DNA from: Thioalkalivibrio nitratireducens DSM 14787
Lineage (GTDB): Bacteria; Pseudomonadota; Gammaproteobacteria; Ectothiorhodospirales; Ectothiorhodospiraceae
Assembly: GCF_000321415.2 (NCBI RefSeq)
Contig: NC_019902.2
Location: 3,348,001 to 3,412,000, forward strand
Length of the DNA: 64,000 nt
Direction of reading: 5' to 3'
Of the stretch, positions 49,168-64,000 are shown piece by piece. How positions within the stretch are numbered: position 1 is the first letter of the stretch; each line of letters opens with the position of its first letter. Made by a program: the position numbers and the translations under genes. Under the pieces are notes generated by a model that saw only the letters and a program-made list of their open reading frames with translations, did no database searches and had not been told where the DNA came from.

Positions 49168-52100
49168 ATGACCGACACGGTCGGCTACTACGACCGGAAT
49201 GCCGCGCGGTATGTCGCCGACACCGCGGGGGTCGACCTGTCGGCGCTACGTGAACGCTTCCTGGCTGAAATCCCCGCCGGCGGGTTCATCCTCGACGCCG
49301 GTTGCGGGTCGGGGCGCGACAGCCTCGCCTTTCTGCAGCAGGGCTACCGCGTACGCGCCTTCGACGCCGCCCCGGAGATCGCCCGGCTCGCGGCCGAGCG
49401 CATTGGCCAGCCGGTGCAGGTGCAACGCTTCGAAGAGCTCGACGAGCGCGCCACCTACGACGGTATCTGGGCCTGTGCCAGCCTGCTGCACCTGCCCGCG
49501 GCGGAACTCCCGAACACGCTGCAGCGCCTCTGGGCCGCACTGAAGCCCGACGGCGTGCTGTACCTGAGCCTGAAGCACGGAGACGGCGAGCGCGTCGACG
49601 CCGAGGGCCGCCACTTCACCGATGCCACCGAAGCGCGCCTGCGCGACTGGCTGGCCGCGCTGCAGGAAATCGCCGCGATCGACTGCTGGCTCACCCGCGA
49701 TGAGCGCCCGGACCGCTCCGAAACCTGGCTGAACGCGCTCGTGCGCCGGGAAACCGCACCCGCCGCCCGGCTCGTAACCGGCGACCCGACCAACCCGTTC
49801 CAAACGCAACTCTGCGACGCGATCGCCCACGCCGACGAAATCGACTTCGCCGTCAGCTTCGTGAAAGTCACCGGCCTGCGCATGCTGCTGCCCGACCTGC
49901 AGGCCGCACTGAGCCCCGACCGCGCCCAGACCCCAAACATCCTTGAGCGCCCCCGGAACCACGAGACCCGTCGTTGCGAGCGCAGCGCGGCAACCCATAC
50001 AGAGCCGGACACATCCACGCCGCATGGATCGCCACGTCGCTCCGCTCCTCGCGATGACAGTGGAGGTGTCCGGACGTCACCGCGAGGAAGCATCGCCAAC
50101 GTGGCAGTCCAGCCGCTGCCGGGATCGCCTCGAGCCTCCGGCCCTCGCGATGACCCGCCCACCCGCCCCCCGGCCCGTATCCGCATCGTCACCAGCGACT
50201 ATCTCGACGTGACCGACCCCGAGGCGCTGCGCCTGCTGATGTTGCTGCAGGAACAGGGCGCGCAGGCCCGCGTTTTCCGCGCCGCCGGCACCAGCTTCCA
50301 CCTGAAGGCCTACCTGTTGGCCCGCTTCGGCGCGAACCACCAGCTGCGCGGCACCGCGTTCATCGGCTCCAGCAACATCAGCCGCCAGGCGCTCACCGAC
50401 GGGCTAGAGTGGAATTACCGCGTCGAATTCCCCGGCGACGACGGCTTCCTCGAAGCGCGCGCCCGCTTCGAGGAGATCTTCCGCGACCCGCGCACCGTCG
50501 CGCTCACCGACGACTGGATCGACGCCTACGAAAAGCGCCGCGTCCCGCCGCCGCGCGCGATCGCGCCGGGCAGCCAGGAAACCGAGCCGCCGCCGGAACC
50601 CACGCCGATCCAGTCCGAAGCCCTCGCCGCCCTCGAAGCCACCCGGCACGACGGCTACCGGCGCGGGCTCGTCGTGCTCGCCACCGGTCTCGGCAAGACC
50701 TGGCTCGCCGCCTTCGACGCCGAGCACATGGATGCCCGGCGCGTGCTGTTCGTCGCCCACCGCGAAGAAATCCTGAACCAGGCCGCGGACACCTTCGCCC
50801 GCATCCGCACCCGGGCACGCATCGGCTACTACATGGGCCAGACCCGCGACGCGCAGGTCGACGTGCTCTGCGCCTCGGTGCAGACGCTCGGCAAGAGCGC
50901 ACACCTCGAGCGCTTCCCACCGGACCACTTCGATTACATCGTGATCGACGAATTCCACCACGCCGCCGCGCCCACCTACCGGCGCCTGCTCGGCCACTTC
51001 GAGCCGCGCTTCCTGCTCGGCCTCACCGCCACCCCGGACCGCACCGACCAGTCCGACATCCTGTCGCTGTGCGACGACAACCTCGTGTTCAACCGCGACC
51101 TGTTCGCCGGGATCGAGGCCGGGCTGCTCGCGCCGTTCCACTACTACGGCATCTGGGACGAATCCGTCGACTACCGCGAGATCCCCTGGCGCAACGGCCG
51201 CTTCGACCCGGAACAGCTCTCGAACAAGCTGGCCACCCTCGCCCGCGCCCGGCACGCGCTGAAGCAGTGGCGCCGACGCTCCCAGCAGCGCACGCTGGCC
51301 TTCTGCGTGTCGATCCGGCACGCCGAGTTCATGGCGGCACAGTTCCAGCGCGACGGCATCGCGGCCGCCGCCGTCTACGGCGGCTCGAGCCTGAGCCGGG
51401 GCGAGGCGCTGCAGCGGCTCACCGACGGCCGCCTGCAGGTCATCTTCTCGGTGGACCTGTTCAGCGAAGGCGTCGACCTGCCCACCATCGACACCATCCT
51501 GATGCTGCGCCCCAGCGAGTCGAAGATCCTGTTCCTGCAGCAGCTCGGGCGCGGGCTGCGCAGGGCGGAGGGGAAGGAGAAGCTCGTCGTCCTCGACTTC
51601 ATCGGCAACCACCACGCCTTCCTGCACAAGACCCAAGCGCTGGCCCAAGCCGGCGCGACCTACCGCGAACTCGCCGCGTTCGCGCGGAAGCTGGAAGCCG
51701 GACGGCTCGAACTGCCCGACGGCTGCTTCATCAACTACGACCTCGCGCTGATCGACTTCCTGAAGGCGCTCGACTCCGACGGCACCGCCAAGGACTACCA
51801 GGCCCTGAAGGACGGCCTCGGCCGGCGCCCGACGCTGGCCGAGTTCTACCGCTCCGGCGCGAACGTGCAACGCATGCGCAAGGAGTACGGCAGCTGGTTC
51901 GAACTGGTCGCGGCGAACGAAGACCTGGGCGAAGCCGAGGCACAGGCCGCGGCAACCCATCGCGAGTTTCTGCGCGACATCGAAACCACCCCGATGACCA
52001 AGAGCTTCAAGATGGTGCTGCTGGAAGCCTTCCAGGAACTCGACGGCTGGGCCACGCCGCCCGACCTCGAGCGGCTCGCGCAGCGCTCCCGCGCCGTGCT

Positions 52101-53256
52101 CGAACGCCGGCGCCCCCTGCTGAGCGACCTGCCCGAAACCATGCGCGCCGGCGGAGACGGTTCCAGCACTGCCTGGCAGCGCTACTGGCGCGGCAACCCG
52201 GTGAACGCCTGGATCGGCGGCAACCAGCCGGCCACCGCACGCACCTTCTTCCGCGTAGCCGACGAACGCTTCGAGCCAACCTTCGACGTGCCGCCCGAGC
52301 ACCGCGAACCCTTCACCGGACACGTGCAGGAACTGATCGACTACCGCCTCGCCACCTACGAGGCGCGGGCCGCCGCGACGGCGCCGGCAAACAACGTCGT
52401 TCCCTTCGAGCGGACCCGCGCCGACGGCACCGAACTGCCATTCTTCCCGAACCTACGCGTCGCCTGCGGCCACTTCAAGACCGGCCGCGCCGACGCCGAG
52501 GAACACCGGAGCCTCGGTTCTGGCCACGGGGCTCTCGACCCGGCGCGGCACTTCATCGCCCGCGCGACCGGAAACTCGATGGACGGCGGCAAGAACCCGA
52601 TCCACGACGGCGACTACCTGCTGCTCGAACTCGTGAGCCCGCAAAACGCCGGCTCGATCACCGGCACGGTGATGGCGATCGAGCGCCAGGACGAAGCCGG
52701 CGACAACCAGTACCTGCTGCGCGTCGTTACAAAAGCCCCGGACGGCCGCTACATCCTCAAGGCCAACAACCCCGCGTTCGAGGACCTGGAAGCGACCGAA
52801 TCCATGCGCACCATCGCCCGCCTGCGGGCCGTGCTCGAACCGCTGGAACTCGCGGTCGGTGAATCCTTCCTGCGCGAGGAGATCCCGCCCCTGCTCGGCG
52901 AGAGCTTCAACCCAGGCAACTGGAACAGCGGCCACGTCGTACTCGCAGACCAGAACGCGCACGTGCTGCTGGTGACGTTGAACAAGCAGGGCAAGGCAGA
53001 AGACCACCGCTACCTGGACCACTGGATCGACGACCACACGTTCCACTGGCAGACCCAGAACTCCACCACCCCGCAGAGCAAACGCGGCCGGGAGATCATC
53101 GAACACGAGCGCCGCGGCATCGCACTCCACCTGTTCGTGCGCGACACCAAGCTCAGCGGCGGCAAGGCCGCGCCGTTCGTTTACCACGGCAAGGTCCGCT
53201 ACCAGAGCCACACCGGCAGCGGACCGATGAGCGTGATCTTCGAGGTGGGTGGCTGA
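49168..53256 (+). CDS. Methyltransferase-PLD-helicase-DUF3427-S24 fusion protein
   Basis: A 1362-aa multidomain protein. Residues 1-195 are a SAM methyltransferase (FILDAGCGSGRDSLAFLQQG). Residues ~205-440 are a phospholipase-D-like nuclease domain (FHLKAYLL and GSSNIS give the HxK...N/S pattern) interrupted at ~268-330 by a translated palindromic repeat. Residues ~480-830 are an SF2 helicase (Walker A ATGLGKTW; DEFHHAA; GLTATPDRTD; QQLGRGLRRAEGKEK). DUF3427-type sequence follows. Residues ~1090-1190 resemble an S24/LexA peptidase (ATGNSMDGG, Ser in the usual place). The ATG lies about 30 bases into a clear gap after the MNT remnant. The next gene, a NUDIX hydrolase, starts one base after the stop. 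The setting in a defence island suggests phage or plasmid defence; this is inference. Confidence 0.88.
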   Translation: MTDTVGYYDRNAARYVADTAGVDLSALRERFLAEIPAGGFILDAGCGSGRDSLAFLQQGYRVRAFDAAPEIARLAAERIGQPVQVQRFEELDERATYDGIWACASLLHLPAAELPNTLQRLWAALKPDGVLYLSLKHGDGERVDAEGRHFTDATEARLRDWLAALQEIAAIDCWLTRDERPDRSETWLNALVRRETAPAARLVTGDPTNPFQTQLCDAIAHADEIDFAVSFVKVTGLRMLLPDLQAALSPDRAQTPNILERPRNHETRRCERSAATHTEPDTSTPHGSPRRSAPRDDSGGVRTSPRGSIANVAVQPLPGSPRASGPRDDPPTRPPARIRIVTSDYLDVTDPEALRLLMLLQEQGAQARVFRAAGTSFHLKAYLLARFGANHQLRGTAFIGSSNISRQALTDGLEWNYRVEFPGDDGFLEARARFEEIFRDPRTVALTDDWIDAYEKRRVPPPRAIAPGSQETEPPPEPTPIQSEALAALEATRHDGYRRGLVVLATGLGKTWLAAFDAEHMDARRVLFVAHREEILNQAADTFARIRTRARIGYYMGQTRDAQVDVLCASVQTLGKSAHLERFPPDHFDYIVIDEFHHAAAPTYRRLLGHFEPRFLLGLTATPDRTDQSDILSLCDDNLVFNRDLFAGIEAGLLAPFHYYGIWDESVDYREIPWRNGRFDPEQLSNKLATLARARHALKQWRRRSQQRTLAFCVSIRHAEFMAAQFQRDGIAAAAVYGGSSLSRGEALQRLTDGRLQVIFSVDLFSEGVDLPTIDTILMLRPSESKILFLQQLGRGLRRAEGKEKLVVLDFIGNHHAFLHKTQALAQAGATYRELAAFARKLEAGRLELPDGCFINYDLALIDFLKALDSDGTAKDYQALKDGLGRRPTLAEFYRSGANVQRMRKEYGSWFELVAANEDLGEAEAQAAATHREFLRDIETTPMTKSFKMVLLEAFQELDGWATPPDLERLAQRSRAVLERRRPLLSDLPETMRAGGDGSSTAWQRYWRGNPVNAWIGGNQPATARTFFRVADERFEPTFDVPPEHREPFTGHVQELIDYRLATYEARAAATAPANNVVPFERTRADGTELPFFPNLRVACGHFKTGRADAEEHRSLGSGHGALDPARHFIARATGNSMDGGKNPIHDGDYLLLELVSPQNAGSITGTVMAIERQDEAGDNQYLLRVVTKAPDGRYILKANNPAFEDLEATESMRTIARLRAVLEPLELAVGESFLREEIPPLLGESFNPGNWNSGHVVLADQNAHVLLVTLNKQGKAEDHRYLDHWIDDHTFHWQTQNSTTPQSKRGREIIEHERRGIALHLFVRDTKLSGGKAAPFVYHGKVRYQSHTGSGPMSVIFEVGG
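49970..50154. repeat. Two palindromic repeats inserted in frame in the fusion gene
   Basis: Unit one (49970-50058) has arms GTCGTTGCGAGCGCAGCG and, reversed, GTCATCGCGAGGAGCGGAGC. Unit two (50086-50154) has arms GTCACCGCGAGGAAGC and, reversed, GTCATCGCGAGGGCCGG. These match the widespread GTCATTGCGAGGAGCGAAGC-type interspersed palindromes. The host frame stays open through both. Confidence 0.85.
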
Positions 53257-53755: not shown

Positions 53756-55567
53756 TTGGCCACTCTGATACCTTCCATCAACTCCTGCCTCCCGCGAATG
53801 ACGGGAGGCGAAAAGCGCTTCGCCCGTCGCCTCGAGGCCAAGCTGGAGGACGACTATCTCGTTTGGTACGACGTTCCCGTGGGTTCCCGAGGCTTTCACC
53901 CCGATTTCATCGTGCTCCATCCGCGCCGTGGGCTACTGGTACTCGAGGTGAAGGACTGGCGCCTCGACACGATCAAGGCTATCCATCGGTTCAGGGCGTC
54001 CATCCTTACCGCCCGCGGGTTGGTGAGCGAGGCCAACCCCCTGGAGCAGGCCCGAGGGTACGCCTGTGCGATTGCTTCCCTGCTCCAGAAAGACCCGGCC
54101 CTCGTCGCATCAGGGGGCCACCCGTACGCGGGCAAGCTGCTCTTCCCGTGGGGCTACGGGGCGGTGCTCGCCAACATCACGCGTAGGCAGTTCGAGTCGA
54201 CCGATCTTGGCGAGGTGCTCGCGCCGCACCAGGTGATCTGCCAGGACGAGATTCTGGAGGACGTGGACACCGAAGCGTTCCAGCAGAAGCTCTGGGGAAT
54301 GTTCTCCGTCCAGTTTGGCGAGGTGCTGACCCTGCCCCAGATCGACCGGATCCGATGGCACATCTTCCCGGAGATCCGAATCGGCGCTGCGCAGGCGGAA
54401 CTGTTCGAAAACACGGAAGAGCCGCTGCCCGACCTGCTCCGCGTCATGGACCTACAGCAGGAACAACTCGCGCGCAGCCTTGGTGAGGGGCACCGCGTGA
54501 TCCACGGTGTCGCCGGCTCCGGCAAGACAATGATCCTCGCCTACCGGTGCTTACACCTTGCGCGGGCGATGAACAGGCCCATCCTCGCGCTCTGCTTCAA
54601 CGTGCCACTCGCCACCCGCCTCGAGGCTCTGCTGCGCGAGCAGGGGCTTGAGGACCAGGTGAGTGTGCGCAGCTTTCACGCCTGGTGCCGGTCGCAGCTC
54701 GTCCACTATCACGTCCCGCTGCCGAGCGATGGCAAGGACTACGCTGACCAGCTTGTGCAGCGTGTGATCAAGGCAGTCGACCGCCAGCAGATTCCGGCCG
54801 GCCAGTACGGAGCCGTCCTCATCGACGAGGGACACGACTTCGCCGCGCACTGGCTGAAGCTTCTCGCGCAGATGGTCGACCCCGCGACCAACGCCCTGCT
54901 GCTCCTGTACGACGACGCGCAGTCGATCTATGGCAAGAGCCGCCGCGGCAAGTTCAGCTTCAAGAGCGTCGGCATCCAGGCACAGGGCCGCACCACCATC
55001 CTGAAGTTGAACTACCGCAACACGACCGAGGTGCTCAGGCTCGCCCATGCCTTCGCCAAGGACGTGCTGACACCTGCCGATGCCGACGAGGACGGGGTAC
55101 CGCTCGTACTTCCGGAAAGCAGCGCCCGGCACGGTCCGCCCCCGGAACTTGTCCGACTCCCGAGCTTCAGCGCCGAGGCCGACTACATTGCGGATCGCCT
55201 TTGCGCACTGCATGGCGAGGGCACCCCGTGGCGCGACATGGCGATTGTGTACCGAAACCACTTCATGGGCGAGAAACTCACCAGTCGCCTGGCAGCCGCC
55301 GGCGTCCCGGTCGACTGGCTCCATCGTTCGCATGACAGCCGCCGGTACCGCACCGGCGAGGACAGCGTGAAGGTCGTCACCTTCCACTCCAGCAAGGGCC
55401 TGGAATTTCCGGTCGTGGCTATCCCCGGGATGGGCTATCTGCCTCATGAGCACGACGACCCTGAAGACGAGGTCCGCCTCATGTACGTAGCAATGACACG
55501 AGCGATGGAACGGCTCGTGATCACATACCACCGGGAGTCGGCGTTTGTCGCGAGGTTGGCAAGGTGA
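53756..55567 (+). CDS. NERD nuclease-domain SF1 helicase
   Basis: A 603-aa protein. The N-terminal NERD domain (residues ~15-120) has HPDFIVLHPRRGLLVLEVKD, with D and ExK in PD-(D/E)xK positions. The C-terminal UvrD/Rep-like helicase has HGVAGSGKTMILAYR (Walker A), YGAVLIDEGHDFA (Walker B), LKLNYRNTTEVLRLA and VVTFHSSKGLEFPVVAIPGM, ending with LMYVAMTRAMERLVITY. The TTG start is chosen because ATLIPSINSCLPRMTGGEKR is the usual family N-terminus; an ATG at 53798 is the alternative. Such NERD-helicases occur in mobile and defence regions. Confidence 0.9.
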   Translation: MATLIPSINSCLPRMTGGEKRFARRLEAKLEDDYLVWYDVPVGSRGFHPDFIVLHPRRGLLVLEVKDWRLDTIKAIHRFRASILTARGLVSEANPLEQARGYACAIASLLQKDPALVASGGHPYAGKLLFPWGYGAVLANITRRQFESTDLGEVLAPHQVICQDEILEDVDTEAFQQKLWGMFSVQFGEVLTLPQIDRIRWHIFPEIRIGAAQAELFENTEEPLPDLLRVMDLQQEQLARSLGEGHRVIHGVAGSGKTMILAYRCLHLARAMNRPILALCFNVPLATRLEALLREQGLEDQVSVRSFHAWCRSQLVHYHVPLPSDGKDYADQLVQRVIKAVDRQQIPAGQYGAVLIDEGHDFAAHWLKLLAQMVDPATNALLLLYDDAQSIYGKSRRGKFSFKSVGIQAQGRTTILKLNYRNTTEVLRLAHAFAKDVLTPADADEDGVPLVLPESSARHGPPPELVRLPSFSAEADYIADRLCALHGEGTPWRDMAIVYRNHFMGEKLTSRLAAAGVPVDWLHRSHDSRRYRTGEDSVKVVTFHSSKGLEFPVVAIPGMGYLPHEHDDPEDEVRLMYVAMTRAMERLVITYHRESAFVARLAR

Positions 55568-55657: not shown

Positions 55658-56461
55658 CTACCCGATCTCCTGCGTCACTCGGCATTTGGGATAGCCAGAG
55701 CAACCCCAGAACTGCTGACCCGCACGGGCACCGCGGCGAACGTTGCGGATCACCATCGGGCTACCGCAGGCCGGACACGCGCGCTCGGCGGTGGGATCCG
55801 CGCGCTTCTTCAGGTTGCTCACATGGTTCCGGTGTGTCTCCATCGATGGCCGCATGCGGCCCGATTCCAGGTCGGAAACCAGTCCCCGAACCTGCTCCTC
55901 CGCGAACACGCGCTCGTGGAACGACTTGATGTGACGAATGTATCCGAGACCCTTCGTCACGTTCGGCGGCATCGGCGTCTTGAAACGGCTGTCGCCCATG
56001 AAGACCACCACGGAGTGGACCGTGTCGGACGGAACCCCGAGGATTTCTTCCACCGCCTTCACGTGCTTGTAGTTCTGCCGCAGGGGGTTCTGAAAGCGGA
56101 AGGTTTTCCGGAAGATCTTCTGCGTCCATTGCGGCTCCCGCTCCCCGCCGAAGATCCAGCCGCCCATGTTCTTCGTCTCGATCACGAAGATACCGAAGGG
56201 GGACACGATCACGTGGTCGACTTGAGTGGTGCCGTCACGCGTCCGCAGCGTGACATTGTGCAGCGGAACATAGGTGTCGGGATCCAGCAGCCTCCGGGCC
56301 GAAACGCGCACCACCCACTCTCCCAGATAACCTTTCACGGCTGGAAGAGCCAGTAACGCGAACAGAAGCCCCAGGACCGCAGGAATCGCAAACAGCCACC
56401 AAGCCTGAGCGAAGGCCTGGATAATCGGAGTGATGAAATCCATAGGCGGCATCTCGGCCAT
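55658..56461 (-). CDS. Membrane-anchored NERD protein with topoisomerase-type zinc finger
   Basis: A 267-aa protein. An N-terminal membrane segment (WWLFAIPAVLGLLFALLALP) is followed by a NERD nuclease domain (HNVTLRTRDGTTQVDHVIVS then PFGIFVIETKNMGGWIFGG: D and ExK present) and a C-terminal C4 zinc finger (ACPACGSPMVIRNVRRGARA, FWGCSGYPKC) like that of topoisomerase I. It converges on the NERD-helicase gene. Starts at 56461 or 56443 are both possible. Confidence 0.85.
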   Translation of the reverse strand: MAEMPPMDFITPIIQAFAQAWWLFAIPAVLGLLFALLALPAVKGYLGEWVVRVSARRLLDPDTYVPLHNVTLRTRDGTTQVDHVIVSPFGIFVIETKNMGGWIFGGEREPQWTQKIFRKTFRFQNPLRQNYKHVKAVEEILGVPSDTVHSVVVFMGDSRFKTPMPPNVTKGLGYIRHIKSFHERVFAEEQVRGLVSDLESGRMRPSMETHRNHVSNLKKRADPTAERACPACGSPMVIRNVRRGARAGQQFWGCSGYPKCRVTQEIG

Positions 56462-56503
56462 TGAAAGCAACTCGGTTAGACGCGATTCACCACTCCGCAG
56501 CCT

Positions 56504-58345: not shown

Positions 58346-61300
58346 ATGCCCGAAACCTTGAACCGCATCCAGGAAACCCTGCTGGCGCTGTTGCCAGAGG
58401 ACGGGAGCAGCATCGGGAATATGGCAGCGCGCCAACGGCTGTCCGAGACCCTTGGCGAAGATGTGTCCGGTGCCGATTACGAGGCGGCACGCCATGCGCT
58501 GCTGCGCGACGGGCGTATCGGCAAGGGCCGTGGTCGCGGTGGTTCAATCCATCGAATTCAGCATGCGACCCATGGCGACACTGAATTCAGCCTACGCACC
58601 CTGGAGGCCCCAGGGCCGGCGGCCCCGAAACCGCCTGGAGGCCAAAGCCCGCGAACCGAGCGCGCACCGTGCGGCGCGCGTGGCCTATCCAATCAGGTTC
58701 TCTCGTACCGCCACGACGACAAGCGCAAGAACAACCCACATGTCGGCATGGTGGACACCCACTCGGATGGCGTCGAGGAACGAAAGACCTGGCGCTACGA
58801 TCCGCATCTGGCCCCGGAACTGCAATTCGACGTCGGCCGGGCGCAGATCGAACGGATCATCGACGACGCCCTGGCCTCCGGCGAGCCGGAGCAGATGCAG
58901 GCGGCGCTGGAAGAACTCAAGCGGCTGCAATCCCCCTTTCTGAACTGGGCCGGCAAGGCCGAGCGCACCGCCTTCACCGTCGATACCGTGTCGCTGCATG
59001 TGCACGAACGCATCGACCCGGCCACGATCCTGGCGGCATTGCAGAAGCGCCTCCGCGACAGCAAGGGCAAGGCTGCGCCCGCCTTCCAGCCCGACCTGTT
59101 CCATGCCCCGTTCGAGAACCTGCCGCTGCGTGACGCCATCGACTTCTACAAGCACGACCGCGACTGGGCAAACCGGCTGATCACGGGTGATTCGCTGCTG
59201 GTGATGAACTCGCTGCTGCAGAAGGAAGGCATGGCCGGCCAGGTCCAGATGATCTACATCGACCCGCCCTACGGCATCAAGTACGGCTCCAACTTTCAGC
59301 CCTTCGTCAACAAGCGCGACGTGAAGGACCGCAACGACGCAGACCTGACCCAGGAACCGGAAATGATCAAGGCGTTCCGGGACACCTGGGAGCTGGGGAT
59401 TCATTCGTACCTGACCTATCTTCGCGATCGGCTGTTGCTGGCACGGGAACTGCTGCATGAGTCGGGGAGCGTGTTCGTGCAGATTTCGGATGAGAACCTG
59501 CATCATGTGCGGGAGATCATGGATGAAGTGTTCGGAGAAGATAATTGTAGTGGCGTGATCCCTTTCCTGACCACCACGTCGCAAAGCGCAGTTGGCATCG
59601 GATCTGTTGCTGATTACCTGATTTGGTATTCAAAGAACAGAGGTGTATTAAAGTACCGACAGCTATATTTGAATAAGGTTACAGCGGCAACGGGGGGATG
59701 GGCCTTGAATCATGCCAGATTCGACGGGTACGTCCTTAGACCACTTACAAGGCACGAACGGAAACACCGGGATCGCTTGCCAACGAACGTTTCTCTTTAC
59801 AGGCTCGATAATCTAACCTCTCAAGGAGTGACTCCTACAGGCACAGTACGTTTCTCCTTCCATGGGCAACATTTTCACCCCGGCGACCGAAACCACTGGA
59901 AAACGACAATTTCAGGAATGAGATTTCTTGCAAAAGCTGGCCGACTTCAGCAATCCACCAACTCAGTCCAGTATGTTCGGTATTTCGACGATTTTCCGGT
60001 TCAGCCTATTACTAATGTGTGGTCAGATGTTACACAAGCAGGGTTCGTGGACGAGAAGTCTTATGTTGTGCAAACGATCACGAAAGTCATCGAGCGCTGC
60101 GTCCTGATGACCACCGACCCGGGCGACCTGGTGCTCGATCCCACCTGCGGATCCGGAACCACCGCCTTTGTCGCCGAGAAGTGGGGACGGCGCTGGATCA
60201 CCTGCGACACCTCGAGGGTTTCGGTTACGCTGGCGAAACAGCGGCTGATGACCGCGAGCTACGACTACTACGAACTCAAGCATCCACACGAGGGCTTGCG
60301 AGGCGGTTTCATTTACAAGACGGTGCCTCATGTCACGCTGAAGTCGATCGCGAACAATCCGGAAATCGACGAAATCCATGCGCGCATGCACCCGGCGGTC
60401 GTGCAAGCGCTGGACGAGCTGAACGCAGCGCTGAAGGGCAAGGCGCCCCGGTTCAAGGTCACGGAGGGCGGGCGCAAGGGCACACAGGTGGATTTCTCCG
60501 CCCCCGCCAGCGCCACTGTAGAGTTACCCTCCGGTGAGCAGGTCGCCGCCAACGCCCTGTTGGAATGGGAGGTGCCCTTCGATTTCCCGCCGGACTGGCC
60601 GGAGGCCGCGCGCACGGTTTTCGATGGCTTCCACGCTGCACGGCGGGCGATGCAGCGGGCGATGGACGCTTCGATCGCGGCTCACGCCGGGCAGGAAGTG
60701 CTGTACGACCAAACCGATGTGAGCCGCCAGAAGCTGCGCATCTCGGGGCCGTTTACCGTCGAGGCGGTACCGTTTGCGACCGTGCTCGGTCTGGACGAGG
60801 CCGAGAGGCCACGCGAGGCCGACGTGGCCGTGGCGCGCTCGGGTGCGACGTCCCGGCAAAAAGTCTGGCGTGAAGAGTTGCTGAAGGCCGGGATTCGCGG
60901 CAAGGGCGGGCAGAAGCTGCGGCTGATGGACCTCGACACCCTACCCGGTACCCATTACATCCACGCCGTTGGCACCGTCGCGGACACCGGCGAGCGCGTC
61001 GCGGTGAGTTTCGGTCCGGAGCACGCAGCGCTGGAGCAGCGACAGGTCGAGATCGCGATGCGCGAAGCGGGCGAGCTGTTCCCACTGCCGAGGCTGCTGG
61101 TGTTCTGCGCTTTCACCTTCGACCCGGAAGCAGCGAAGGATATCGACAACATCAAGGGTATCCAGGCGCTGAAGGTACAGATGAATACCGACCTACTGAC
61201 CGAAGACCTGAAGAAGGCGCGCGCCGGCAACGAGTCGTTCTGGCTGATGGGCCAGCCGGATGTCGAGGTCCGCACGCTCAAGGACGGCCAACTGCAGGTC

Positions 61301-61645
61301 GAGGTGCATGGCTTCGACTACTTCGATACCAAGACCGGCGAGCTGCGCTCCGGCGGCAAGAAGAACATTGCGCTGTGGGAACTGGATACCGACTACGACA
61401 ACCGTTCGCTGTACCCGCGGCAGGTCTTCTTCCCGATGGCCGGTGGCAAGGAAGGCTGGTTCAAGCTGCGCAAGGACATTCGCGCCGAGTTGAACGAAGA
61501 CCTGCTGGAGCGTTTTCATGGCACGAAGTCCCTGCCGTTCGTGCCGGGCGACAACCGCTGCATCGCGGTCAAGATCGTCGATGATCGTGGCATCGAATCG
61601 CTGAGGGTGATCCGGCTGGACGCAACGACAGGTGACGGACCATGA
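58346..61645 (+). CDS. mod: Type III-like DNA methyltransferase (Mod)
   Basis: A 1099-aa beta-class N6-adenine or N4-cytosine methyltransferase. An N-terminal winged-helix-like segment (residues 1-70) precedes MIYIDPPYGIKYG (motif IV, ~307) and FxGxG-like DPTCGSGTTAFVAEKWG (~598), in the order used by type III Mod proteins. Residues ~402-582, between the motifs, form the target-recognition domain and are encoded by clearly AT-richer DNA. The C-terminal ~450 residues are Mod-specific. It is longer than most Mod proteins (~650 aa). The ATG at 58346 has GAGAAAAA upstream. The ATPase gene starts inside its stop codon. Confidence 0.9.
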   Translation: MPETLNRIQETLLALLPEDGSSIGNMAARQRLSETLGEDVSGADYEAARHALLRDGRIGKGRGRGGSIHRIQHATHGDTEFSLRTLEAPGPAAPKPPGGQSPRTERAPCGARGLSNQVLSYRHDDKRKNNPHVGMVDTHSDGVEERKTWRYDPHLAPELQFDVGRAQIERIIDDALASGEPEQMQAALEELKRLQSPFLNWAGKAERTAFTVDTVSLHVHERIDPATILAALQKRLRDSKGKAAPAFQPDLFHAPFENLPLRDAIDFYKHDRDWANRLITGDSLLVMNSLLQKEGMAGQVQMIYIDPPYGIKYGSNFQPFVNKRDVKDRNDADLTQEPEMIKAFRDTWELGIHSYLTYLRDRLLLARELLHESGSVFVQISDENLHHVREIMDEVFGEDNCSGVIPFLTTTSQSAVGIGSVADYLIWYSKNRGVLKYRQLYLNKVTAATGGWALNHARFDGYVLRPLTRHERKHRDRLPTNVSLYRLDNLTSQGVTPTGTVRFSFHGQHFHPGDRNHWKTTISGMRFLAKAGRLQQSTNSVQYVRYFDDFPVQPITNVWSDVTQAGFVDEKSYVVQTITKVIERCVLMTTDPGDLVLDPTCGSGTTAFVAEKWGRRWITCDTSRVSVTLAKQRLMTASYDYYELKHPHEGLRGGFIYKTVPHVTLKSIANNPEIDEIHARMHPAVVQALDELNAALKGKAPRFKVTEGGRKGTQVDFSAPASATVELPSGEQVAANALLEWEVPFDFPPDWPEAARTVFDGFHAARRAMQRAMDASIAAHAGQEVLYDQTDVSRQKLRISGPFTVEAVPFATVLGLDEAERPREADVAVARSGATSRQKVWREELLKAGIRGKGGQKLRLMDLDTLPGTHYIHAVGTVADTGERVAVSFGPEHAALEQRQVEIAMREAGELFPLPRLLVFCAFTFDPEAAKDIDNIKGIQALKVQMNTDLLTEDLKKARAGNESFWLMGQPDVEVRTLKDGQLQVEVHGFDYFDTKTGELRSGGKKNIALWELDTDYDNRSLYPRQVFFPMAGGKEGWFKLRKDIRAELNEDLLERFHGTKSLPFVPGDNRCIAVKIVDDRGIESLRVIRLDATTGDGP

Positions 61646-62808
61646 AGCCCAAGAGTCTCTCGCTGCGAGAGTTCGCACAGATCCGCGAAGCCGATGTCCA
61701 TTTTGGCGATCTGACCGTTCTGGTGGGGCCCCAAGCCACGGGCAAGAGTGTCTTCCTGCAACTGCTCAAGCTGATTGTGGACTGGCCGTCAATTCACGAT
61801 GAGTTCCGGCGGTTCAACATCGACTGGGGCGGAGACCTCGCCAGCTTCCTGGAACTCTATTTCGGCGAAGGAATGTCTGGAATCTGGTTGCCGAATACCA
61901 GCCGCCTGACGGTCGACGGCGCTGAGACAGACCTGGCCGACTTTGCCAAAGGCCGCCGCAGAACAGCCCGCGACGAACGCTTTTTCTTCATTCCGGCCCA
62001 GCGTGTAATGAGCCTGCGCGACGGGCTTACCCGAACGTTCACCGAGTACCGTTCCGGAGACCCGTTTGCGCTGCGTGCGTTCAGCGAACGTTTGCATCAG
62101 CTTATTCAAAATGAGTTTGCACAGAAGCCAGAACTTTTCCCCCAAAGCAACCGGCTGAACAACGCGTACCGCGAACTGATCTCCAAACATATTTTCGGCG
62201 GATTCGGCTTGGAAAGCGGGTCGGAGAAATTCCAGCGGCGGGTGACCCTGAAGGCACCGGGAAACGGCAGCGCGCTGCCCTATCTCGTCTGGTCGGCCGG
62301 GCAGCGGGAGTTCGTTCCCCTGCTGCTGGGGTTCTACTGGCTGATGCCGCCGAGCAAGGTCTCCCGGCGCGACAAGCTGGAGTGGGTCGTGATCGAGGAA
62401 CTCGAGATGGGACTGCACCCGAACGCGATCTCGGCGACGATGGCGCTGGTCCTGGAGCTTCTCTGCCGCGGCTATCGGGTCTGTCTGTCCACACACTCGA
62501 CCCATGTCCTCGACGTGGTCTGGGCCCTGGGTTTTCTCAAGAAGAACGGTGGGCAGGCCAAGGATGTGCTCCGCATGCTCGGGTTGAAGTCGACGGCTCG
62601 CACGAAGCAGATCGCGGGCGACGCGTTGAGCAAGGACTGCCGGGTCTACTACTTCAGGCCGGACGGTGTGGTGAAAGATATTTCGGACTTGGATCCCGGG
62701 GCGGCTGACGAGGCCGAATCCGGATGGGGTGGACTCAGCGGCTTCTCCGGGCACGTCGGGGATGTCGTGGCCGAGGTGGCAAATCGTGGTCCCTCGGAGA
62801 AGCGCTGA
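61642..62808 (+). CDS. AAA ATPase (OLD/RecF-like) embedded in the type III operon
   Basis: A 388-aa SMC/ABC-type ATPase: Walker A LVGPQATGKSVFLQ, signature-like LVWSAGQREFVPLLLGF, Walker B EWVVIEELEMGLHPNAI and H-loop LSTHSTHVLDVVW. There is no TOPRIM domain. Its ATG overlaps the mod stop and its stop overlaps the next start (TGATG), so it is made together with Mod and the downstream proteins. ATPases of this kind are typical of defence systems such as OLD, Septu and retron-associated ATPases. Its presence between mod and res is not part of classical type III restriction. Confidence 0.85.
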   Translation: MKPKSLSLREFAQIREADVHFGDLTVLVGPQATGKSVFLQLLKLIVDWPSIHDEFRRFNIDWGGDLASFLELYFGEGMSGIWLPNTSRLTVDGAETDLADFAKGRRRTARDERFFFIPAQRVMSLRDGLTRTFTEYRSGDPFALRAFSERLHQLIQNEFAQKPELFPQSNRLNNAYRELISKHIFGGFGLESGSEKFQRRVTLKAPGNGSALPYLVWSAGQREFVPLLLGFYWLMPPSKVSRRDKLEWVVIEELEMGLHPNAISATMALVLELLCRGYRVCLSTHSTHVLDVVWALGFLKKNGGQAKDVLRMLGLKSTARTKQIAGDALSKDCRVYYFRPDGVVKDISDLDPGAADEAESGWGGLSGFSGHVGDVVAEVANRGPSEKR

Positions 62809-63287
62809 TGAAATTCAAGGAGGCAGTGGAAGCCGCCGCGCACCCGTTGAACGACAGCTACAACCCCGGAAAGCAGGCCCTGAAGCGCGAGCACCGCGCT
62901 CAGGTCCGGGGGCGCGACCGTGCGTTCACGGGGAGCGTCGACATCGATGGAGCGTTACAGGCGGACCCCCGATATCGTCATGATCCGCGCTGGGATTACG
63001 GCTTGGGTTATGAACATCGGTCGGGTCACGAACAGGCCGTGTGGATTGAAGTGCACCCTGCCTCGACCAGCGAAGTGCGTGCAGTCATCCAGAAGCTGCA
63101 ATGGCTGAAGCGATACCTGAGCGACCGCGCACCAGCGCTGAATCGTATAACCGTGATGATGGGTAAGCAGAAACCCTTCGTGTGGCTGGCGACGTCCGCG
63201 GTAAAAATTCCACCGAACACGCCGCAAGCCCGTCTGTTGCGGGCGCACGGTCTGGACCTGCCACGCCAACAGATCACACTTCCATGA
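62808..63287 (+). CDS. Small protein of the type III-like operon, possible PD-(D/E)xK relative
   Basis: A 159-aa protein. RWDYGLGYEHRSGHEQAVWI EVHPASTSEVRAVIQKLQWL has the spacing of a PD-(D/E)xK nuclease core (D...E-x-K, then helix), with His where Lys is usual. The start overlaps the ATPase stop by one base, and the end overlaps the res start by four. It is likely a partner of the ATPase. The nuclease idea is inference; a non-catalytic or immunity role is equally possible. Confidence 0.65.
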   Translation: MKFKEAVEAAAHPLNDSYNPGKQALKREHRAQVRGRDRAFTGSVDIDGALQADPRYRHDPRWDYGLGYEHRSGHEQAVWIEVHPASTSEVRAVIQKLQWLKRYLSDRAPALNRITVMMGKQKPFVWLATSAVKIPPNTPQARLLRAHGLDLPRQQITLP

Positions 63288-64000
63288 ACACTCCGACCTC
63301 GCTGATCCTGAACTCGCCGTACGATCCCCCGGCCCGCCATTGGGAGCAGGACGCGAATGGCAAGGTGCTGCAGGTGGTGGATGGTCGCCGACGGGCTGCC
63401 TACGAGCTGTACGACACCCGGAACAACACCCGGCGCATCGAAGATCTGGAGACGGTGAACCGGATTCGCGAGCGTGTGGACCAGTGGCGCGCGCACGGCT
63501 GGCCCGGAGTCACCAGCGTCACGCGGCAGTTGCTGGAGCACTGGCACGCGCGCGGCGAGTGGGTGCCGGGTTCCAGGAGCTGGATCGGCGGGCCGCGGCC
63601 ATTTCCGTTCTACTTCTGCCAGTTGGAGGCGATCGAATCCCTGATCTGGTGGCTGGAGGCGCCGGACCCGTACCGGCAGGGCATCTACCTGCAGGGCGAT
63701 GGTGGGCCGTGGGAACGCGTCTGCAACAAGATGGCTACGGGCTCCGGAAAAACCCCGGTCATGGCCCTGATCATCACCTGGCAGGCTTTGAACGCGATCC
63801 AGTACCCGAAGGATCGCCGCTTTTCGCGCGCTGTTCTGGTGATCGCCCCGGGGATTACCGTGAAGAACCGCCTGCAAGTCTTGTACCCCGGCGACCCGCG
63901 CAACGTCTACGACGAGTTTCACCTCTGCCCGAACGAATCCCTGCGGCAGCGGCTGAACCAGGTCGAGGTGCGCGTGGAGAATTGGCACACGTTGATGCCG
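63284..64000 (+). CDS. res: Type III-like restriction helicase (Res), start only
   Basis: The first 239 codons of a gene running off the window. NSPYDPPARHWEQDANGKVL and ESLIWWLEAPDPYRQGIYLQ are typical of Res N-termini. NKMATGSGKTPVMALIITWQ is the helicase Walker A motif. The remaining helicase motifs and the C-terminal endonuclease domain must lie beyond 64000. Its ATG overlaps the previous stop (ATGA). Confidence 0.88.
   Translation, partial: MNTPTSLILNSPYDPPARHWEQDANGKVLQVVDGRRRAAYELYDTRNNTRRIEDLETVNRIRERVDQWRAHGWPGVTSVTRQLLEHWHARGEWVPGSRSWIGGPRPFPFYFCQLEAIESLIWWLEAPDPYRQGIYLQGDGGPWERVCNKMATGSGKTPVMALIITWQALNAIQYPKDRRFSRAVLVIAPGITVKNRLQVLYPGDPRNVYDEFHLCPNESLRQRLNQVEVRVENWHTLMP

Follow-up and report, generated by a model that had tools for sequence, protein, structure and literature searches.

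The stretch analysed here (the window) comprises 64,000 nucleotides of Thioalkalivibrio nitratireducens DSM 14787, whose genome is a single contig of 4,002,350 bases. At its end lies a four-gene operon in which mod and res, the genes of a type III-like restriction-modification system of the NCBI BPTD_3080 family, are separated by two further genes, here called A and B:

58346-61645 (+): mod, type III beta-class DNA methyltransferase, 1099 amino acids (aa)
61642-62808 (+): A, ABC-type AAA_21/AAA_15 ATPase, 388 aa, PADLOC PDC-M56A
62808-63287 (+): B, 159 aa, PADLOC PDC-M56B, putative nuclease
63284-64000 (+): res, first part, BPTD_3080-family superfamily 2 (SF2) helicase-nuclease, 940 aa in all

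The res gene runs past the window end to genome position 3414106 (L002:7284-10106). An earlier note, made from the sequence alone, had described the four genes as overlapping by 1-4 bases, and the open reading frames (ORFs) at these coordinates agree with it: the junction letters are ATGA (mod/A), TGATG (A/B), and ATGA (B/res), giving overlaps of 4, 1, and 4 bases. GC content is 61% in mod, A, and B, 63% in res, and 66% in the window. The operon is real and well formed: a restriction system of known kind whose cargo slot holds an already known candidate defence module.

Sequence comparison assigns Mod and Res to the BPTD_3080 family of type III-like restriction-modification systems, as the family calls of the earlier note had implied. 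Mod matches the PADLOC model MTase_III (4.1e-183) and Mod-type entries of the PDB (6k0w, 3.1e-18; 4zcf, EcoP15I, 3.7e-16), and its motifs (DPPYG at residue 306, CGSGT at 601) place the catalytic DPPY ahead of the S-adenosylmethionine motif, which is the beta-class order. Full-length Res scores 1146 bits against the NCBIfam model NF046055, whose cut-off is 800, and contains SF2 helicase motifs (Walker A GSGKT at 153, DEAHH at 277) and a C-terminal PD-(D/E)xK nuclease (PD at 874, EVK at 889). PADLOC REase_III models cover just short parts of Res (best 9.3e-16), and a phmmer search of the PDB gave no relative at 0.01. The unusual length of Mod stressed in the earlier note is real (1099 aa vs. 644 aa for the EcoP15I Mod chain) but not special to this locus. 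Among homologous operons, mod ORFs that appear whole are 874 aa (Planktothrix) to 1126 aa (G035) long, and the cargo-free mods of G310, R. etli, S. herbicidovorans, and R. wittichii start with a comparable N-terminal region; the length is a family trait and was therefore dropped from any claim of novelty. One further mod ORF, L057:3335-4717 in G262, opens with a Res-like N-terminal stretch followed by a C-terminal mod part, and resembles a rearranged older copy.

The two middle genes match both models of the PADLOC candidate system PDC-M56 over nearly their full length (A, 1.7e-149; B, 1.3e-45), so that what the earlier note took for an undescribed system is, in its A and B components, already catalogued; the window pair differs from that entry in sitting between mod and res. 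A matches Pfam AAA_21 and AAA_15, with otherwise only ATPase-type hits and a sub-threshold DUF5906, and carries Walker A (GPQATGKS, residues 29-36), signature (WSAGQRE, 217-223), and Walker B (IEELE) motifs along with STHS. Its domain and fold are OLD/Rad50/PtuA-like, in keeping with the OLD/RecF-like ATPase first proposed. The D...E-x-H core noticed earlier in B also stands, since D63, E81, and H83 are invariant in eight aligned orthologues, as are G21, A24, S43, D47, W62, Y64, A85, K96, W126, and V132, and the conservation of these core residues is well beyond chance. In the structure model, scored at a predicted local distance difference test (pLDDT) value of 52, strands 64-71 and 74-81 are followed by a helix at 87-107. 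With K96 on this next predicted helix, D63...E81-x-H83 could be read as a PD-(D/E)xK-like site whose lysine has shifted position, and we treat B as a putative nuclease of unproven fold. Assignment of B by sequence to HNH or another known nuclease family was rejected, as Pfam gave no match at E up to 1 and PADLOC, at the same limit, gave PDC-M56B alone.

In order to place this arrangement among related operons, the mod-res junction was compared across 29 loci: the window (G000), 20 places from the class search, and 8 plasmids opened of the 56 matching records. Res matches were found in 20 of 369 class genomes at 1e-80, 2 of 398 phylum genomes at 1e-150, and 56 of 72,556 plasmid records at 1e-5. 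Eighteen loci, with the mod end and the res start in view and in mod-to-res order, were kept. The 11 left out show a res-then-mod order (L059 and L062-L066 from the class search, and the plasmid L026) or have no mod in view (L056, L058, L068, and L070); G646 was not counted because it duplicates the R. etli locus. A and B are missing from the junction in 17 of the 18 operons, the window being the exception. Eight junctions are empty (-1 to 86 bases: G310, G244, G385, R. etli, S. herbicidovorans, R. wittichii, Sphingobium CAP-1, and R. beringeri), and ten are occupied, seven of them by an ATPase gene. These ATPases represent at least four PADLOC families, HEC-01 and PD-T4-4 included. The occupied junctions contain:

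Window (G000): PDC-M56
G035: HEC-01A/B; Res 76% identical
G347: PD-T4-4
G181: PD-T4-4, with a transposase-like ORF between the ATPase parts
G228: PD-T4-4_A-like gene and a weak PDC-M47B-like partner
G262: PD-T4-4_A-like gene, a weak PDC-M47B-like partner, and a second, OLD-like ATPase
Planktothrix: NsnB-like ATPase and a partner gene
G276: BrnT and PIN genes, toxin-antitoxin-like
G348: Schlafen/AlbA_2 protein
Thermus: DUF3800

An earlier profile had been built partly from junction ATPases, and a control profile, built from six non-junction ATPases only, served as an independent test. When run at E up to 10 on 709 ORFs from the junction loci and the window upstream region, it returned seven matches, one at each of the seven ATPase loci and identified by length as the junction ATPase ORFs (weakest, G181, E 0.0033), and none among the flank ORFs; junctions make up 12% of the compared sequence (22.1 of 181 kb). 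The control profile missed two junction ORFs of the earlier profile (the second G262 ATPase and the second G181 piece) and left unmatched an annotated DNA-repair-type AAA ATPase upstream of mod in S. herbicidovorans, which indicates that remote flank ATPases can escape it. As the 18 loci include close relatives (three Sphingobium/Rhizorhabdus loci, and the Rhizobium loci), the junction counts do not represent independent events, and the preference for ATPase genes is a strong tendency rather than a tally of such events.

Some of the loci outside this count carry related arrangements. ATPase genes lie ahead of res at a contig end in L056 and L058, and upstream of the BPTD_3080-like res of L056 (G088) a bacterial ubiquitin-like conjugation set (Multi_ubiq, E2, and ThiF/JAB) is found beside the ATPase and a small gene. 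The more distant BPTD_3080-like loci L059 and L062-L066 encode res and then mod, five of the six with a gap of about 0.9-1.5 kb.

A and B form a separable two-gene unit that also occurs alone in other bacteria and in a phage. Ten ATPase homologues of reasonable length were compared: the window, L007 (a Desulfuromonadales metagenome-assembled genome), L011 (an Opitutaceae plasmid), L012 (G088), L014 (a phage contig), L048 (G638), L049 (G444), L050 (G498), L075, and L077. B adjoins A in eight of these, and mod/res adjoin only two of the eight pairs, those of the window and a decayed L007 copy; no mod or res homologues were found in the fetched flanks of the other six, the L048 flank reaching ~400 bases beyond B. 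In G088, the A-B pair and the BPTD_3080-like res lie on separate contigs, and on the phage contig (L014:5112-6802, IMGVR_UViG_3300048575_000521) a PDC-M56-like pair lies on the opposite strand between the genes for a major head protein and a head-tail adaptor. L007 holds a second, decayed copy of the four-gene order. There, a mod-like tail (VDDRGIESLK...) overlaps the start of A by 4 bases, A (64% identical to window A) is followed by B, and an ATG overlapping the B end by 4 bases begins a segment resembling Res 1-48, after which comes a piece like 685-732. These remnants indicate that a second lineage once had the mod-A-B-res order, which is therefore not confined to this genome. The earlier note had regarded its idea of a four-gene unit as lost if mod-res pairs normally lacked the middle genes or if those genes usually occurred away from mod/res, and both are the case among the loci compared. 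Its hybrid idea survives in part: restriction-modification is joined with an ATPase-type defence module as an overlapping gene set, but an obligate four-gene system is not supported.

Searches for the pair recovered PDC-M56B matches in 3 of 369 class genomes (one weak and full of stops) and 3 of 96 relatives (one weak), and none in 50,697 phage records. ATPase A was matched in 4 of 398 phylum genomes at 1e-40 and in 2 of 18 genomes of the family of G444, the A-B pair was found on 1 of 72,556 plasmid records, and a search of genome contigs yielded one relative. Weak B-like sequences were left uncounted at L006/L081 (G026; a 42-44 residue stretch, E 3e-4 and 1e-5) and at L010/L080 (G273; five internal stops), as was a 31-residue ATPase match at L013; in L080, tblastn at E 0.01 gave no match to any of the four window proteins.

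Among characterised systems, WonAB, the most thoroughly studied parallel found, resembles the window pair by arrangement, as a two-gene ABC-ATPase with a small partner. WonAB consists of an OLD-ABC ATPase and a predicted PD-(D/E)xK protein encoded on a V. cholerae prophage; both genes are required, the partner is toxic only in the presence of the ATPase, and activated WonAB inhibits translation (PMC12137116). The same source groups WonAB more broadly with ATPase sensors paired to nuclease effectors, and likens it to PD-T4-4. WonAB is prophage-borne and a relative of the window pair sits on a phage contig, but the nuclease fold of B is not established. PD-T4-4 and HEC-01 likewise combine an OLD-type ATPase with a small partner and occupy the same slot in related operons, although their ATPases belong to other families; A scores 8.4e-7 with PD-T4-4_A vs. 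1.7e-149 with PDC-M56A. Assignment of the window pair to PD-T4-4 was rejected on this difference, on the exclusive match of B to PDC-M56B, and on a 6% hhalign probability. Searches found no literature on HEC-01 with PADLOC or on BPTD_3080. Septu (PtuAB) shares the PtuA-type ATPase fold of A, but membership was rejected because the Pfam searches of B revealed no HNH partner of the PtuB kind.

PrrC, named as a HEPN nuclease, combines an ATPase and an anticodon nuclease in one polypeptide and resembles the present case as an effector embedded in a restriction operon. Here, in contrast, two genes encode the ATPase and its partner, and the locus is type III-like; A itself was rejected as PrrC-type, the 388-aa protein having only the ATPase-type and sub-threshold matches given above. 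In the type IC locus EcoprrI, PrrC is described as activated when restriction is inhibited (PMC12707154). Other modules reported inside restriction loci, between hsdS and hsdR, are DarTG2 and, in four genomes, an ATPase pair (PMC12255303); type III loci with an extra helicase-like ATPase 5' of mod involve a different gene in a different place (PMC8259958).

Starting from the observed gene order, overlaps, and family matches, the independent occurrence of A-B, and the alternative cargo in the slot, we consider it probable (about two in three) that this BPTD_3080 type III-like operon carries an embedded, separable two-gene PDC-M56 module in its mod-res cargo slot, acting as an ATPase-licensed effector. 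Judging from family membership, Mod and Res would cut unmethylated incoming DNA. A may act as an ATP-gated dimer of the ABC-ATPase kind, detecting some sign of infection, and would then license B, a small nuclease-like effector, to shut the cell down, as suggested by analogy with WonAB and with PrrC beside a type I enzyme. Because they would be co-transcribed with the restriction genes, A and B could provide a second layer behind restriction. The reading is compatible with cargo wired to the restriction enzyme as a guard and with cargo that simply travels along with it.

Several observations weigh against this reading. Kin loci and broken or incomplete genes among the 18 operons weaken the junction count: mod or res is cut or partial in G347 and G348, res is in pieces in G181, mod is rearranged in G262, and IS21 genes lie inside mod in Sphingobium CAP-1. 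PDC entries are unpublished "guilt-by-embedding" candidates that lack validation, according to PMC12988326, and the name PDC-M56 was not found in the literature searched. Window A reads EELE and STHSTH at positions where EEPE (9/9) and mostly STHSP (7/9; exceptions L075 and L077) stand in the other nine homologues, and these deviations may alter its activity. The model of B is poor and comes from three sequences; a Foldseek search with it returned 999 matches up to E 10 but none that reached 0.001, and the restriction enzymes and XisH among them, at E 0.28 or worse, were not used. A profile search of PDB sequences with B gave C-reactive protein as its best hit (0.11). The 6% hhalign probability was obtained with PD-T4-4_B-like partners, and a relationship of B to these was rejected. 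Finally, tblastn at E 0.01 found no B beside L075, where A is cut at a contig end and the next gene is on the other strand, or beside L077, whose ATPase is 39% identical.

Of the other explanations, plain hitch-hiking, in which a mobile restriction locus offers a safe, expressed insertion point at the junction of its overlapping operon and cargo and host have no working relation, has a real if minor chance of being correct. It would account for the variety of cargo and for the eight empty junctions, and embedded defence genes are a known pattern (PMC12255303, PMC12988326). Its difficulty is that such ATPases were matched in junctions and never in the flanks of the same loci, which is more selective than random landing would lead one to expect, a point itself weakened by the shared ancestry of some loci.

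As a special case of the embedded module, A could monitor the integrity of Mod/Res, or the DNA ends that they produce, and free B only once restriction has been disabled by a phage, in the manner of PrrC in EcoprrI. The ATPase genes of several families in seven of ten occupied junctions, the gene overlaps retained in the decayed L007 copy, and the description of PrrC and PARIS as restriction guardians (PMC12707154) are consistent with such a role. We nevertheless think it unlikely, as the pair occurs without mod/res in six of eight cases and is presumably able to act alone, and as the slot also takes toxin-antitoxin genes, a Schlafen-like gene, and DUF3800, which fits general defence cargo. 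A broader version is likewise unlikely. In it, the junction of BPTD_3080-type operons would be a dedicated socket for exchangeable guard modules, into which ABC-ATPase and effector pairs of different families repeatedly insert because their ATPases sense the condition of the type III enzyme or of the DNA ends it makes, and PDC-M56 would be a type III counterpart of the PrrC fail-safe.

A selfish role, in which A and B would behave like a toxin-antitoxin pair and stabilise the restriction locus in its host, finds a parallel in the toxin-antitoxin-like BrnT and PIN set in the slot of G276, but appears improbable given that simple sequestration was ruled out for the analogous WonAB (PMC12137116). 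That A and B are obligate, working subunits of a new four-subunit restriction enzyme, as the overlapping operon and the second, decayed example in another lineage might suggest, is very improbable and was rejected, because close mod-res relatives lack A/B or have other genes in their place and because the pair is mostly found alone.

Other defence-type genes flank the operon on both sides. Upstream, the window contains:

49168-53256 (+): an unusual 1362-aa fusion of methyltransferase, PLD-like, type III res-type helicase, S24 peptidase-like, and DUF3427 parts; PADLOC mREase_IV, 1.6e-113
53756-55567 (+): NERD and UvrD helicase protein; PADLOC C3a187, 1e-199
55658-56470 (-): NERD and topoisomerase zinc-ribbon protein

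Downstream of res and outside the window, L002:10714-13079 and L002:12998-14362 match PD-Lambda-2_B and PD-Lambda-2_C, and are followed by a helix-turn-helix and PIN-domain pair on the other strand.

Literature searches found no description of the BPTD_3080 junction slot or of its preference for an ATPase with a partner, part of which the PDC source preprint may cover. The operons compared here suggest that, as in type I operons, a fixed position inside type III-like restriction operons takes exchangeable defence modules. PDC-M56, so far an unvalidated catalogue entry, is placed in a definite context; relatives of it occur alone and on a phage, and its conserved residues are candidates for mutation. 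If A does stand guard over Mod and Res, the way in which bacteria protect a type III enzyme from phage anti-restriction would become testable.

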